Part shown: piece by piece, positions 2,250 to 58,715 of the stretch
Layout: each line of letters begins with the position of its first letter
Position numbering within the stretch: the stretch's first letter is position 1
NCBI GenBank assembly: GCA_030537735.1
Contig: JAUNVG010000004.1
Coordinates: 1 to 64,000, forward strand
DNA length: 64,000 nt
Direction of reading: 5' to 3'
From: Actinomycetaceae bacterium
GTDB taxonomy: Bacteria; Actinomycetota; Actinomycetes; Actinomycetales; Actinomycetaceae
Translations under genes and position numbers: made by a program
Notes under the pieces: model-generated
Databases searched by the model: none
What the model was told of the DNA's origin: nothing
Seen by the model: only the letters and a program-made list of their open reading frames with translations

Positions 2250-2900
2250 ATGCGCAGTCTGCGAGCCAAAACCCGCGTTCGCCACGAAATCGTCATCCAA
2301 CGTTCACGATTTATCGCATCGCTTGGGCACACTCCCTCTGAGCATGCCGCCCGTCAGTTTATCACGTCTGTGCGTGAAGAGTTTCCTGACGCCACCCACA
2401 ACTGCTCAGCTTTCGTGGTTAAACCCGAAGATTCTAATGAGATTGGTCACTCTAACGACGATGGAGAGCCCTCAGGCACAGCTGGCATGCCGATGCTGGA
2501 GGTTTTACGGCGAAATAATATGGTCAATGTCACGGCCGTAGTGACACGCTATTTCGGGGGCACACTACTTGGAGCCGGCGGCTTGGTACGGGCATACTCC
2601 ACCTCGGTTTCGGAAACTCTCCAACGCGCCTCGACTGTGAAACTCGAACACTGGGAACAATGGGACGTGCAACTGCCCCACAGCGCCGCCGGTAAGTTCC
2701 ACGCCCAAGTCCACCAACAAGGCGGCGAAGTAGTGGACACCACCTACACCGAAGTGGTGCAGGTGAGCTACATTTGTCCGCCCGCGGTAAGTAGCCAGCT
2801 ACTCACCCAAGTGGCGGAGTTAACCTCCGGGCAAAGTCAACCACTTTTTGTTTCCCAAAAGCTGGTTGAAATCGACGAAGCCAGCGGTCGCCCTATATGA
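2250..2900 (+). CDS. YigZ/IMPACT family protein (UPF0029)
   Basis: A 216-residue member of the YigZ/IMPACT family. It has the signature DDGEPSGTAGMPML (residues 70-83) and the block VTRYFGGTLLGAGGL (about 98-112), followed by a C-terminal ferredoxin-like region. Family members are associated with translation control in eukaryotes (IMPACT); the bacterial role is not firmly known. The start is ATG with GGAGG seven bases before it. A -10-like GACAAT (2225-2230) suggests transcription starts about ten bases before that site, so this gene has a short leader. It is divergent from the ribosomal cluster. Confidence 0.88.
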   Translation: MRSLRAKTRVRHEIVIQRSRFIASLGHTPSEHAARQFITSVREEFPDATHNCSAFVVKPEDSNEIGHSNDDGEPSGTAGMPMLEVLRRNNMVNVTAVVTRYFGGTLLGAGGLVRAYSTSVSETLQRASTVKLEHWEQWDVQLPHSAAGKFHAQVHQQGGEVVDTTYTEVVQVSYICPPAVSSQLLTQVAELTSGQSQPLFVSQKLVEIDEASGRPI

Positions 2901-3011
2901 TCGTAAACGTGATTTCTACTGTCTTGCTTCCAGCCGCCGGCACACCTGGATCTGCCGCGTTCCTTCGGCTGCAAGTTAGGCTGCGCGACATCTGCGGTAC
3001 CAAGGCTGACC

Positions 3012-3151
3012 ACCGGTGTATTTAGGGGTATAGCGTTTAGTTCCCTAGCGTGCTATCCCCCGTTACATCCTTCATTTAGCGATTCAAAAAATACCCCTAG
3101 TCAACCGGTAAGCGGCGCCTCTAAGCCCAACTTAACGCCGCGTCTTAAGGC
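3012..3151 (+). promoter_or_regulatory. Structured leader upstream of cysK with mutually exclusive pairings
   Basis: The 270-base gap before cysK holds several nested complementarities. A long-range pairing joins ACCGGT (3012-3017) plus TAGGGGTAT (3023-3031) with ATACCCCTA (3091-3099) plus ACCGGT (3104-3109), giving 6+9 bp separated by a small internal loop. A competing local hairpin joins GGGGTATAGC (3025-3034) with GCTATCCCC (3052-3060), with one bulge. A further hairpin GCGGCG/CGCCGC (3112-3117 with 3136-3141) lies just before the weak ribosome binding site. The pattern resembles a switching leader such as an attenuator or riboswitch. No known class was recognised. Confidence 0.4.
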
Positions 3152-3170
3152 AGAAAGAAAACTTCAAACT

Positions 3171-4100
3171 ATGTCCTTCTATCCAGACATCACCAAAACT
3201 ATCGGCCACACTCCCCTGGTGCAGCTATCGCGGTTGTTCCCCGGCTCCACGCGGGTACTGGCCAAGATCGAATCCTTTAACCCCGGTGGCTCGGTGAAAG
3301 ACCGCGTCGCCCTCGCCATTGTGGAAGCCGCTGAAGCCAGCGGCGCCCTCCCCCCGGGTGGCACCTTGGTGGAAGCCACCTCCGGCAATACCGGTGTAGG
3401 ACTGGCGATGGTGGGCGCTGCGCGCGGCTATCGCGTGGTTATCGCCATGCCTGCGTCCATGAGCCGCGAACGCCGCCTGTTGATGCGAGCCTACGGCGCA
3501 GAAGTGATCCTAACCGACCCGCAAAGTGGGATGGCAGGAGCGGTAGAGGCCGCGGAGCGCATCGTCGCCCAGCGGCCCGGCGCAGTCCTCGCATCCCAGT
3601 TCAACAACCCCGCCAACCCTCACGCTCACTACCTGCGTACCGGCGCGGAGATTTGGGAACAAACCGGAGGCGAGGTTGACGTGGTGGTCGCCGGAGTCGG
3701 CACCGGGGGCACCATTTCAGGTGTGGGTAAAGCCCTGCGTGAACGAGGCAGCGCGACCCAGCTAGTGGCAGTGGAGCCCGCCGAGTCCGCGTTGATCACT
3801 ACCGGTGAGGCCGGTCCGCACGGGATTCAAGGCATCGGAGCTAACTTCATCCCTGACAACTACGATGCTTCGGTAGTTGATCAGGTACTTGCCGTAACCA
3901 CCGCTGAAGCTATGGAATACGCTCGTAAAGTTGCCGCCACAGAAGGGATCCTAGTGGGGATTTCCTCAGGAGCAGCACTGGCGGCAGTCGCGCAGCTACT
4001 TCGCGACCACCAACTAGAGGGTAAAACTGTGGTAGTGGTGCTACCCGACACCGGTGAGCGCTATCTATCCACCGCGCTTTGGTCGGATCTAGATGCTTAG
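3171..4100 (+). CDS. cysK: Cysteine synthase (O-acetylserine sulfhydrylase)
   Basis: A 309-residue PLP enzyme that makes cysteine from O-acetylserine and sulfide in the cytoplasm. The PLP lysine is K43 in NPGGSVKDR; the substrate loop is EATSGNTG (68-75), and the phosphate-binding loop is GTGGTISG near residue 180. Length and motifs are typical of the CysK/CysM fold. The adjacent serine acetyltransferase, 17 bases downstream, makes its substrate, so cysK-cysE form an operon and the CysK assignment is favoured over cystathionine beta-synthase. The ribosome binding site is weak (AGAAAGAAAA), and the gene follows an unusually structured leader. Confidence 0.95.
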   Translation: MSFYPDITKTIGHTPLVQLSRLFPGSTRVLAKIESFNPGGSVKDRVALAIVEAAEASGALPPGGTLVEATSGNTGVGLAMVGAARGYRVVIAMPASMSRERRLLMRAYGAEVILTDPQSGMAGAVEAAERIVAQRPGAVLASQFNNPANPHAHYLRTGAEIWEQTGGEVDVVVAGVGTGGTISGVGKALRERGSATQLVAVEPAESALITTGEAGPHGIQGIGANFIPDNYDASVVDQVLAVTTAEAMEYARKVAATEGILVGISSGAALAAVAQLLRDHQLEGKTVVVVLPDTGERYLSTALWSDLDA

Positions 4101-4117: not shown

Positions 4118-4702
4118 GTGCATAACAGTGAAATCAGCCTGTTTTCTCTGATTCGCGAGGACGTGGCCAACGCCCGCCAACGCGACCCGGCGGCGCGCTC
4201 TTGGTTAGAGATCGTCCTCGCCTACCCGGGGGTCCACGCAGTCTGGGCCCATCGCTTCGCCCACCGCCTGTGGCATCGCGGCATGCGCACCCTAGCGCGC
4301 ACTATATCCTCCCACGCGCGCGTGATAACGGGGATAGATATCCACCCGGCAGCGGTTATCTCCCGGCGCGTCTTCATAGATCACGGCACCGGTGTGGTGA
4401 TCGGAGAAACCGCGCAGGTGGGCGAGGACGTGGTGATCTTCCACGGAGTCACCCTCGGGGGCGTCGCGATGGTGCAAGGAAAGCGCCACCCCACCGTCGG
4501 TTCACACGTGATGATAGGGGCGGGAGCGAAAGTACTTGGCCCCATCACCGTCGGTGACGGGGCCAAGATTGGAGCCAATGCGGTGGTGGTTAAGGATGTG
4601 CCAGCCGAACATGTGGCGATTGGGATTCCGGCGAAGACTCAACCGATTTGTAAAGAATCACGCCAAGCCGACCTGATTGTTGACCCCACGCTATACATTT
4701 GA
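4118..4702 (+). CDS. cysE: Serine O-acetyltransferase
   Basis: A 194-residue serine acetyltransferase that acetylates L-serine with acetyl-CoA, the first step of cysteine synthesis. The short N-terminal helical region ([16 protein letters not shown]) is followed by left-handed beta-helix hexapeptide repeats, with the family blocks [21 protein letters not shown] and FHGVTLGG that carry the catalytic His/Asp. It is of the short form common in Gram-positive bacteria. It is cotranscribed with cysK; AAGGAG precedes the GTG start. Confidence 0.95.
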
Positions 4703-56765: not shown

Positions 56766-58715
56766 CTACTCGCTATCTTTCGGGGTAGTTTTTGCCACGG
56801 TCATAAGGAATTCAGCGTTAGAACCGGTGTCTTTCAAGCGATCGAGCACCAGTTCCAGTGCTTGCTGCTGCTCCAAGTTCCCAAGCACACGACGCAGGCG
56901 CCACATGATGGCAAGTTCTTCCTTCTTGAAGAGCATCTCTTCCCTTCGGGTACCGGAAGCGTTGACGTCCACCGCGGGGAATATCCTGCGGTCTGCCAGC
57001 TGGCGAGACAGACGTAGCTCCATGTTCCCGGTTCCCTTGAACTCTTCGAAGATGACTTCATCCATCTTCGAACCGGTCTCCACCAAAGCCGAGGCGATAA
57101 TGGTCAAGGAGCCGCCATCTTCAATGTTGCGCGCTGCTCCGAAGAACTTCTTGGGAGGATACAACGCTGAAGCATCAACACCACCGGAAAGGATACGCCC
57201 GGAAGCCGGGGCGGCCAGGTTATATGCACGCCCCAAACGGGTGATCGAGTCCAGCAGCACTACCACGTCCTGGCCCAGTTCCACCAAGCGCTTAGCGCGC
57301 TCGATGGCGAGTTCGGCCACGGTAGTGTGGTCTGAAGCCGGCCGGTCGAACGTTGAAGCGATGACCTCCCCCTTCACCGTACGTTGCATATCGGTGACTT
57401 CCTCGGGGCGTTCATCCACTAGAACTACCATCAGGTGTACTTCTGGGTTGTTTTGCGAAATAGCATTCGCAATCTGCTGCATAATGATAGTTTTGCCCGC
57501 TTTAGGGGGTGAAACTATCAAACCGCGCTGCCCCTTACCGATAGGTGAAACCAGGTCGATAATGCGAGGCGTAATAGCTTTAGGAGTGGTTTCCAACCGT
57601 AGCTGCTCTGTCGGGTACAGAGGCGTCAGCTTTGAAAACTCCCGCCGCGCAAGAGCTTGTTCCGTGGTCAGGCCGTTTACGGAGTCTAGCCGTACCAGCG
57701 CGTTGTACTTTTGACGTGGCCTTTCACCTTCACGTGGCTGCCGTACCGCGCCCACCACGGCGTCGCCTGGACGCAGTCCCCAGCGACGTACATTTCCTAA
57801 AGTAACGTACACGTCATTGGGGCCTGGCAAGTATCCCGAAGTACGCACGAACGCGTGGTTTTCTTGGACTTCAAGAATGCCCCCAATCGGGATTAGGACA
57901 TCTTCTTCAGTCACCTCAGTGTCTCGTTCATCGCGGCCACCGCGGCGCTTATTGCGTTCCCGGCCGCGACGACGACGCCCTCCGCGATCGTCGCGATCGT
58001 CACGATCACGCTGGTTGCGACCATTACGACGCCTGGAGTTACGATCCTCGTCGTTATCGTCCGCAGCCGCAGCTGAGGGGAGCTTAATGTCATCTAGGGT
58101 TTCAGCTACTTTATGGGAGTCATTGTGGTCTTCGGTTTTACCCTCCGATACGCCCTTACCCAGTTCTGCTGCCACGTCCAAGGTCCGCTGCTCTGGAGTG
58201 CCCTGGCTTATCGACACCGCCCGGCGGCGGCGCTTGCGGGACTGTTCGGATGAAGATGAGCTACCTTCGTTTTCGCTTGCTCGTGGCGCCACAATGTCGG
58301 CAGTATCTGCCTTCGGGGCATCAGAGCGAGTCTGCGGATCGGATGCGCCCATGGTGGCAGCGCGCCGCGGGCGCTTCTTCTGGGAGGTATCTGCTACTTC
58401 CTTAGCAGCATCATTGGCTTTAGCGGAGTCTGCCTGCGAGGATTCTTTGTTGTCCCGCTGCTTTTCAGCTTTGTCCGCGGAGGCAGGTTCTGCCTGCTTG
58501 GTGTTTCTGTTCTTAGGTTGCGTCTTGGACTCTTCTTCGCGCTGCTTCGGCTCGGAGTTTTCTGCCCCATCGCGCGCTTGTCGGATTAGCGTTATAAGCT
58601 CTGCACGACGCTTCTTCGCGGTACCTTTCAGGCCCATTTCGTTGGCTAGCTCTTGTAGTTCTGCTAGGCGCAGCGTTGATAGTGGGCGCTTCTTCGGGGT
58701 AGTTGTTTCGCTCAA
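56766..58715 (-). CDS. rho: Transcription termination factor Rho
   Basis: A 649-residue Rho helicase of the actinobacterial type. The N-terminal Rho_N helix bundle (about 12-48, STLRLAELQELANEMGLKG) is followed by a low-complexity insertion of some 230 residues, rich in charged residues with Arg/Gly runs (RGGRRRRGRER), then the RNA-binding cold-shock domain (ILEVQENHAFVRTSGYLPG) and the ATPase core with Walker A SPPKAGKTIIMQQ and the Q/R-loop region. The start is TTG at 58715 with GAGGA seven bases upstream. The 246 bases before it show no gene. Confidence 0.96.
   Translation of the reverse strand: MSETTTPKKRPLSTLRLAELQELANEMGLKGTAKKRRAELITLIRQARDGAENSEPKQREEESKTQPKNRNTKQAEPASADKAEKQRDNKESSQADSAKANDAAKEVADTSQKKRPRRAATMGASDPQTRSDAPKADTADIVAPRASENEGSSSSSEQSRKRRRRAVSISQGTPEQRTLDVAAELGKGVSEGKTEDHNDSHKVAETLDDIKLPSAAAADDNDEDRNSRRRNGRNQRDRDDRDDRGGRRRRGRERNKRRGGRDERDTEVTEEDVLIPIGGILEVQENHAFVRTSGYLPGPNDVYVTLGNVRRWGLRPGDAVVGAVRQPREGERPRQKYNALVRLDSVNGLTTEQALARREFSKLTPLYPTEQLRLETTPKAITPRIIDLVSPIGKGQRGLIVSPPKAGKTIIMQQIANAISQNNPEVHLMVVLVDERPEEVTDMQRTVKGEVIASTFDRPASDHTTVAELAIERAKRLVELGQDVVVLLDSITRLGRAYNLAAPASGRILSGGVDASALYPPKKFFGAARNIEDGGSLTIIASALVETGSKMDEVIFEEFKGTGNMELRLSRQLADRRIFPAVDVNASGTRREEMLFKKEELAIMWRLRRVLGNLEQQQALELVLDRLKDTGSNAEFLMTVAKTTPKDSE

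Follow-up and report, generated by a model that had tools for sequence, protein, structure and literature searches.

A predicted cysteine attenuator ahead of cysK-cysE in Actinomycetaceae, with a hairpin rooted in the stop codon of a leader ORF

Cysteine leader peptides are already known in Actinobacteria. Canestrari and colleagues reportedly tested them in mycobacteria in 2020, and in Mycobacterium smegmatis a polycysteine ORF is said to occur with a leader structure that sequesters the downstream ribosome site. In the portions available, three papers (PMC9031893, PMC9094748, PMC13236596) cite Canestrari et al. 2020 for cysteine-responsive attenuation. Cysteine leader peptides had been predicted in 2005 in Mycobacterium, Propionibacterium acnes and Bifidobacterium longum (PMC1262725); the accessible part of that paper reports that no conserved terminator hairpins were found at these leaders, suggests Rho and names cysK 0 times. 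In Rhodobacterales, the uORFC-8-2 motif is described as a cysteine uORF ahead of cysS (PMC8632094, accessible part).

Here we analyse the window, a stretch of 64,000 nucleotides from an Actinomycetaceae genome, in which an earlier note had pointed to a structured leader ahead of cysK. From comparison of sequences we propose, with a probability of about 0.7, that this leader is a ribosome-mediated cysteine attenuator for cysK-cysE. The accessible parts of four papers (PMC8079986, PMC5784534, PMC11109978, PMC6429828) contain no cysK leader, and in our literature search, which lay mostly outside subscription journals, we recognised no cysK stop-codon hairpin for this group.

The leader ORF and the P1 hairpin in the window

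The genes yigZ (2250-2900), cysK and cysE follow one another in a row; cysK, cysE and all features of the leader lie on the plus strand. The cysK gene (3171-4100; TIGR01139, 409.6 bits, cut-off 350.95) encodes cysteine synthase A, and cysE (4118-4702; TIGR01172, 243.7 bits, cut-off 210.65) encodes serine O-acetyltransferase. Since cysE begins 17 nt past cysK, the two genes probably belong to the same operon. The proposal that cysK is a plausible cysteine-responsive target stands, and it extends to cysE. Elsewhere in the window, on the minus strand at 1306-1882, a gene for type B ribosomal protein L31 adjoins the S14 gene, an adjacency also known from zinc-responsive ribosomal protein clusters.

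Only one promoter-like site occurs in 2800-3300, against 0.2 expected. This predicted promoter (2872-2901) overlaps the end of yigZ and consists of TCGACG at 2872-2877, a spacer of 18 nt and TATGAT at 2896-2901. Exactly 7 nt behind the TATGAT box lies a GTG, the predicted leaderless start of an open frame of 38 codons (2909-3025; MISTVLLPAAGTPGSAAFLRLQVRLRDICGTKADHRCI) that closes with a UAG stop at 3023-3025. The transcript is predicted to start at about 2909, at the start codon of this leader ORF, and two relatives (L088 and L112) carry the same TATGAT box 7 nt ahead of a start codon. This predicted start lies upstream of 3110, so that, as far as a prediction goes, the objection of a start beyond 3110 raised in the earlier note does not apply.

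The leader ORF ends in His-Arg-Cys-Ile followed by UAG. The presumed sensing codon is the penultimate one, UGU at 3017-3019, a position that is part of the motif by which loci were picked; cysteine enrichment is also seen when that motif is not used. A second cysteine codon, UGC, lies at 2993-2995, so that the window ORF has just two in 38 codons, isolated rather than contiguous, with one near the stop. The motif TGY-N3-TAG-RG turns up in 8 of 1,000 shuffles of the region. Because the ORF runs to the UAG at 3023-3025, its stop codon forms the first part of the inner arm TAGGGGTAT of the earlier note.

Directly at this stop codon lies a hairpin that we call P1. Its 5' arm (3025-3036) starts with the G of UAG, in the register of the family and with covariation in relatives, and its 3' arm spans 3050-3061 with a core at 3052-3061. 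The local hairpin of the earlier note is the P1 of the window: 3025-3034 pairs with 3052-3061 through nine Watson-Crick pairs and one U.C mismatch (3029/3057). It is equalled by 41 of 2,000 shuffles of its own downstream sequence. The fold of the leader as a whole (3000-3170) is unremarkable, with only a modest advantage over shuffles (z -1.72). A third hairpin had also been claimed ahead of the cysK start, and one is present in the minimum-energy fold, where 3112-3117 pairs with 3136-3141.

Leader ORFs and P1 in relatives

We detected cysK in 58 of 59 relatives; in the family as a whole, 203 of 213 genomes have it. Removing 3 duplicates from 166 loci left 163 distinct ones, 14 of which were unparsed, giving 149 parsed cysK loci; 122 family loci were parsed, from a fetched set that covered part of the 203 genomes in which the family has cysK. 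Some match to the motif was found at 76 of the 149, the length filters were passed by 71, and removal of one spurious locus (L101) left 70. A short ORF with a penultimate cysteine, followed by P1, thus precedes cysK at 70 of 149 parsed loci. The motif itself fixes the penultimate cysteine, and that position is therefore not independent evidence. When the motif is not used, at least three cysteine codons occur among the last eight before the stop at 38 of 122 family loci (1.3% of shuffles), and at least four at 21 of 122 (none of 2,440 shuffles).

The leader peptides of relatives vary widely but end in cysteine, as in MLFGIMSSACCCL (L093), MRFPVSSRCRVCR (L095) and MKIVFTRLSSTFMCTQCL (L089), and some, such as L093 and L261, contain contiguous runs of cysteine codons. 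In one genus the ORF at six loci (L118, L132, L149, L175, L176, L185) ends with Gly-Glu-UGA a few codons past the cysteines, and the UGA stop is again inside the P1 arm, GGGCGAATGAC. The candidate start lies 6-7 nt past a -10-like box in the window, in L086-L091 and in L112; in L083 and many other loci a stretch resembling a Shine-Dalgarno sequence takes the place of that box. Three of the 11 genomes of the genus (L084, L085, L092) have no such leader ahead of cysK, and there the preceding gene extends close to cysK, which indicates that the leader was lost or gained within the genus. Upstream of cysK in other families of the class (L234, L236, L243, L246) we observed a second kind of cysteine leader peptide, with a common core like TRRRVVDF...CxC and without the C-x-stop-RG motif.

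In the common register of P1 the first paired base is the G of the stop codon. About 11 further pairs come after it, and nearly all loci have a loop of 12-46 nt. In most relatives the arms are GC-rich, and their duplex energies are mostly -18 to -25 kcal/mol. What is conserved is this simple hairpin together with the cysteine-coding ORF; the loop is variable.

Covariation supports the hairpin. Alignment A1 holds 62 of 67 fragments. Alignment A2 (MAFFT, unfitted, with the structure supplied) holds 27 sequences chosen for arms that lined up; 91.7% of its cells pair, and changes on both sides occur in 32 cells compared with 11.8 after shuffling. The model R1, built from A2, recovers leaders of relatives outside its training set. 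In alignment A3 (57 hits from 73 chosen sources), which was fitted to the structure, 93.9% of cells pair and both-side changes occur at 15 of 17 P1 pairs; the 161 cells with such changes, a count to be read with this fitting in mind, compare with 38.9 after shuffling, and no slid version exceeds 31.

Arms were also swapped between loci. Over 64 loci the pair A:B has a mean z of -2.19; the other 22 segment pairs range from -0.42 to +0.30, and A:B is the only one of the 23 clearly better than swaps. Six loci (L102, L104, L094, L146, L192, L207) were left out of this control because their arms misfit the register, a selection that favours A:B. With all 71 motif loci, the arm pairing of a locus exceeds every swap in 7 and ranks among the best four in 32. 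When the downstream sequence of each locus is shuffled 200 times, P1 is matched in no more than 2 shuffles at only 27 of 68 loci; L102 and L104 were excluded from this test, from that of composition after P1 and from that of an inner hairpin in arm A. Support for the inner hairpin (positions 2-5 with 11-14) is weak, with 81.3% paired against 74.7% in shuffles and confounding by P1.

At E<=0.1 the model R2 has matches in about two thirds of the genomes in the family (142 of 213). At E<=0.01 it matches 31 of 198 genomes of the order, and cysK is present at 29 of the 30 order loci returned. Class-wide it matched 5 genomes out of 296, with E values of 0.0016-0.0066; these matches were dismissed as chance, with cysK at 0 of 5 loci.

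How does the window fare against this family? R1 gives 4.6 bits (E 0.11 in 401 bases) and R2 7.8 bits, seventh among 19 matches in the 64 kb (E 2.3), and the genome-wide R2 searches did not recover the window leader; the search of its own genome returned one other place (L248, E 0.076), among unrelated genes. The R2 match in the window is nevertheless in the right place and register, with about 0.005 expected per 270-nt intergenic sense strand (scaled from E). Compared with eight near leader loci, P1 pairs +5, +7, +8 and +9 are changed on both sides in the window with pairing kept, and +6 is mismatched. We take the window as a divergent member of the P1 leader family, weak by covariance score alone, because P1 register, both-side changes, promoter, ORF, penultimate cysteine and gene order all agree.

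The long-range stem and how the leader may act

The 15-bp long-range pairing claimed earlier does exist. All 15 pairs are Watson-Crick, joining 3012-3017 with 3104-3109 and 3023-3031 with 3091-3099, so that the 5' side (3012-3031) spans the last cysteine codon and the stop, opposite a 3' side at 3091-3109. None of 1,000 dinucleotide shuffles of 2901-3170 contains the two-part 9+6 stem (64 of 1,000 contain the 9-bp stem alone), and none of 300 shuffles reaches its strength of -25.4 kcal/mol (z -4.19 against swapped sequence). Conservation divides the two pairings: the local hairpin P1 is kept in relatives with covariation, and the 15-bp stem occurs in this genome alone among those tested. It is absent from the eight near leader loci, where 92 to 299 of 300 shuffles equal what is there, and where P1 lies 39-53 nt from cysK as against 108 nt in the window.

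The two foldings are indeed mutually exclusive, as they share 3025-3031. The predicted probability of P1 is about 0.8 while the RNA ends at 3066-3090 and 0.14-0.24 once 3112 is reached; the long-range stem is predicted to take over once 3109 is made, with probability 0.71-0.95. Judged by sequence, the stem would be a species-specific addition or, less likely, chance. That it forms a second, species-specific switch, in which P1 forms first and is then replaced in a timed choice, would add to the attenuator rather than compete with it; its strength, its rarity in shuffles and the predicted succession speak for this, its absence from the near relatives against it, and we regard it as doubtful.

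We propose the following course for a cysteine attenuator. Transcription would begin near 2909, at the GTG of a leaderless ORF with a penultimate cysteine codon, and P1 would form directly at its stop codon, the G of UAG being the first paired base. When charged tRNA-Cys is scarce, a ribosome would stall on the last cysteine codon and cover about 3001-3029, hindering P1 and blocking the long-range stem, and cysK-cysE would be expressed. When cysteine is plentiful, the ribosome would terminate and leave, P1 would form as the OFF structure and expression would fall. In this genome P1 appears weakened, and the stronger 15-bp stem could replace it. Given an upstream ORF that ends in cysteine, sensing by the ribosome is more likely than the binding of a small molecule to the RNA.

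We also folded the leader with simulated ribosome occlusion, using an estimated footprint. With the ribosome on UAG, neither P1 nor the long-range stem is left; with one on UGU 3017 the long-range stem is lost, and P1 persists at 0.46 by way of its upper part; and with one on UGC 2993 the long-range stem remains. Counting against the attenuator are this persistence of P1, the low R1 and R2 scores of the window leader, its mismatched P1 and single cysteine codon near the stop, the lack of the leader in three genomes of the genus, and the negative result for conserved pairing to the cysK ribosome site. A terminating ribosome covers the same arm as a stalled one, and the signal would therefore be the dwell time of the ribosome at the end of the ORF, not a choice of position. 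Our tentative extension, which we hold with less than even confidence, is a widespread class of attenuators, present in Actinomycetaceae and also in several related families, whose OFF hairpin has the stop codon as its base and which read ribosome release, the 15-bp stem here being a third, later state.

P1 might reduce expression by Rho-dependent termination in the C-rich stretch that follows it. Between P1 and the cysK start, 3063-3150 is C-rich and G-poor, a possible Rho loading region. The skew (C-G)/(C+G) after P1 is 0.29 in the window, against a mean of -0.02 and a maximum of 0.27 in 18 intergenic controls from the window. It averages 0.30 at motif loci (positive in 61 of 65) and 0.07 at loci without the motif (positive in 47 of 79), a difference with a Mann-Whitney p of 2e-9, uncorrected for relatedness. 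The sequence features of a Rho attenuator are present (a C-rich, G-poor downstream stretch, no U-tract, and rho itself within the same window at 56793-58682), and we weakly favour this mode of action for P1, at no better than even odds.

Two other modes of action are unlikely. In translation attenuation, the cysK ribosome site would be sequestered by the leader RNA until a stalled ribosome freed it, as has reportedly been described for mycobacterial polycysteine ORFs. The accessible part of PMC13236596, from 2026, likewise reports translation attenuation of cysteine genes in M. smegmatis. Here, however, pairing with the cysK start region is no stronger for any of the leader segments tested (A, Aup, U2, L, B) than it is after swapping (mean z -0.05 to +0.15), and the 3' end of P1 lies 36 to 239 nt ahead of the cysK start codon across loci.

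An intrinsic terminator, in which P1, alone or with an inner helix, would halt RNA polymerase unaided, we consider no more probable than that. In its favour, most relatives have a stable, GC-rich P1, and at one locus (L212) a T-run directly follows it, so that the hairpin there looks like an intrinsic terminator. Yet at least five T in the 8 nt after P1 occur at only 6 of 68 loci, on which ground a U-tract terminator was rejected, and a pattern scan for sense-strand terminators found none in the window leader.

It is most improbable that the inverted repeats are DNA operators of a transcription factor or the ends of a small mobile element. ACCGGT is palindromic and 3012-3109 has near-perfect inverted ends, but the sequence is single-copy in its genome, on which ground a mobile or repeated element was rejected; the ten other genomes of the genus have matches of 16-22 nt only, and in relatives the arms are complementary, not identical.

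Least probable of all is a riboswitch for cysteine, O-acetylserine, sulfide or SAM, despite a structured leader with two exclusive folds ahead of a cysteine gene: Rfam 15 gives no match at E<=10 in 2880-3200, in keeping with the earlier finding of no known riboswitch class, nor in the leaders of 15 relatives, and what relatives conserve is a cysteine-coding ORF plus a simple hairpin whose loop varies. Of the two options first put forward, attenuator or riboswitch, the attenuator-like leader is thus the one retained, on the evidence of a cysteine-ending ORF that had been overlooked. A leader common to relatives likewise points to a switch of a known type and not to a riboswitch.

Comparison with known systems

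The leader had been proposed as possibly a new actinobacterial cysteine-synthesis leader. The stop-codon hairpin is the new part; the cysteine leader peptides as such are not, given the 2005 predictions (PMC1262725, as far as accessible) and the mycobacterial work of 2020. The hairpin gives the known cysteine-leader mechanism a testable part, its covariance model offers a means of annotating such leaders, and a simple design is suggested in which ribosome dwell time at a stop codon is read out.

Among attenuators of amino-acid genes, those at ilvB in Corynebacterium and M. tuberculosis (PMC11109978, PMC13236596, accessible parts) are likewise actinobacterial and uORF-based, but they respond to other amino acids and use a classical antiterminator and a U-tract terminator. 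The uORFC-8-2 motif resembles our leaders in having a uORF with conserved cysteine codons and stems upstream of a cysteine-related gene; it differs, in the text available, in its intrinsic terminator with a U-run at the end, in the placement of its cysteine codons within the first stem and in its alphaproteobacterial hosts. The candidate leaders of PMC1262725, as its accessible part presents them, have runs of cysteine codons near the stop codon, no obvious terminator and a suggested role for Rho; they come without a conserved terminator hairpin, whereas leaders of the window type have a covarying one, at cysK.

The mycobacterial polycysteine leaderless sORFs share with the present leader a short cysteine ORF, often leaderless there and predicted to be so here, genes of cysteine metabolism as targets and ribosome stalling as the presumed sensor. 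They reportedly have contiguous cysteine codons and ribosome-site sequestration; the window leader has no contiguous cysteine codons, and we found no conserved pairing with the cysK start region. Here, instead, a covarying hairpin rises from inside the stop codon, the cysteine codons may all be isolated ones, and the target is cysK-cysE.
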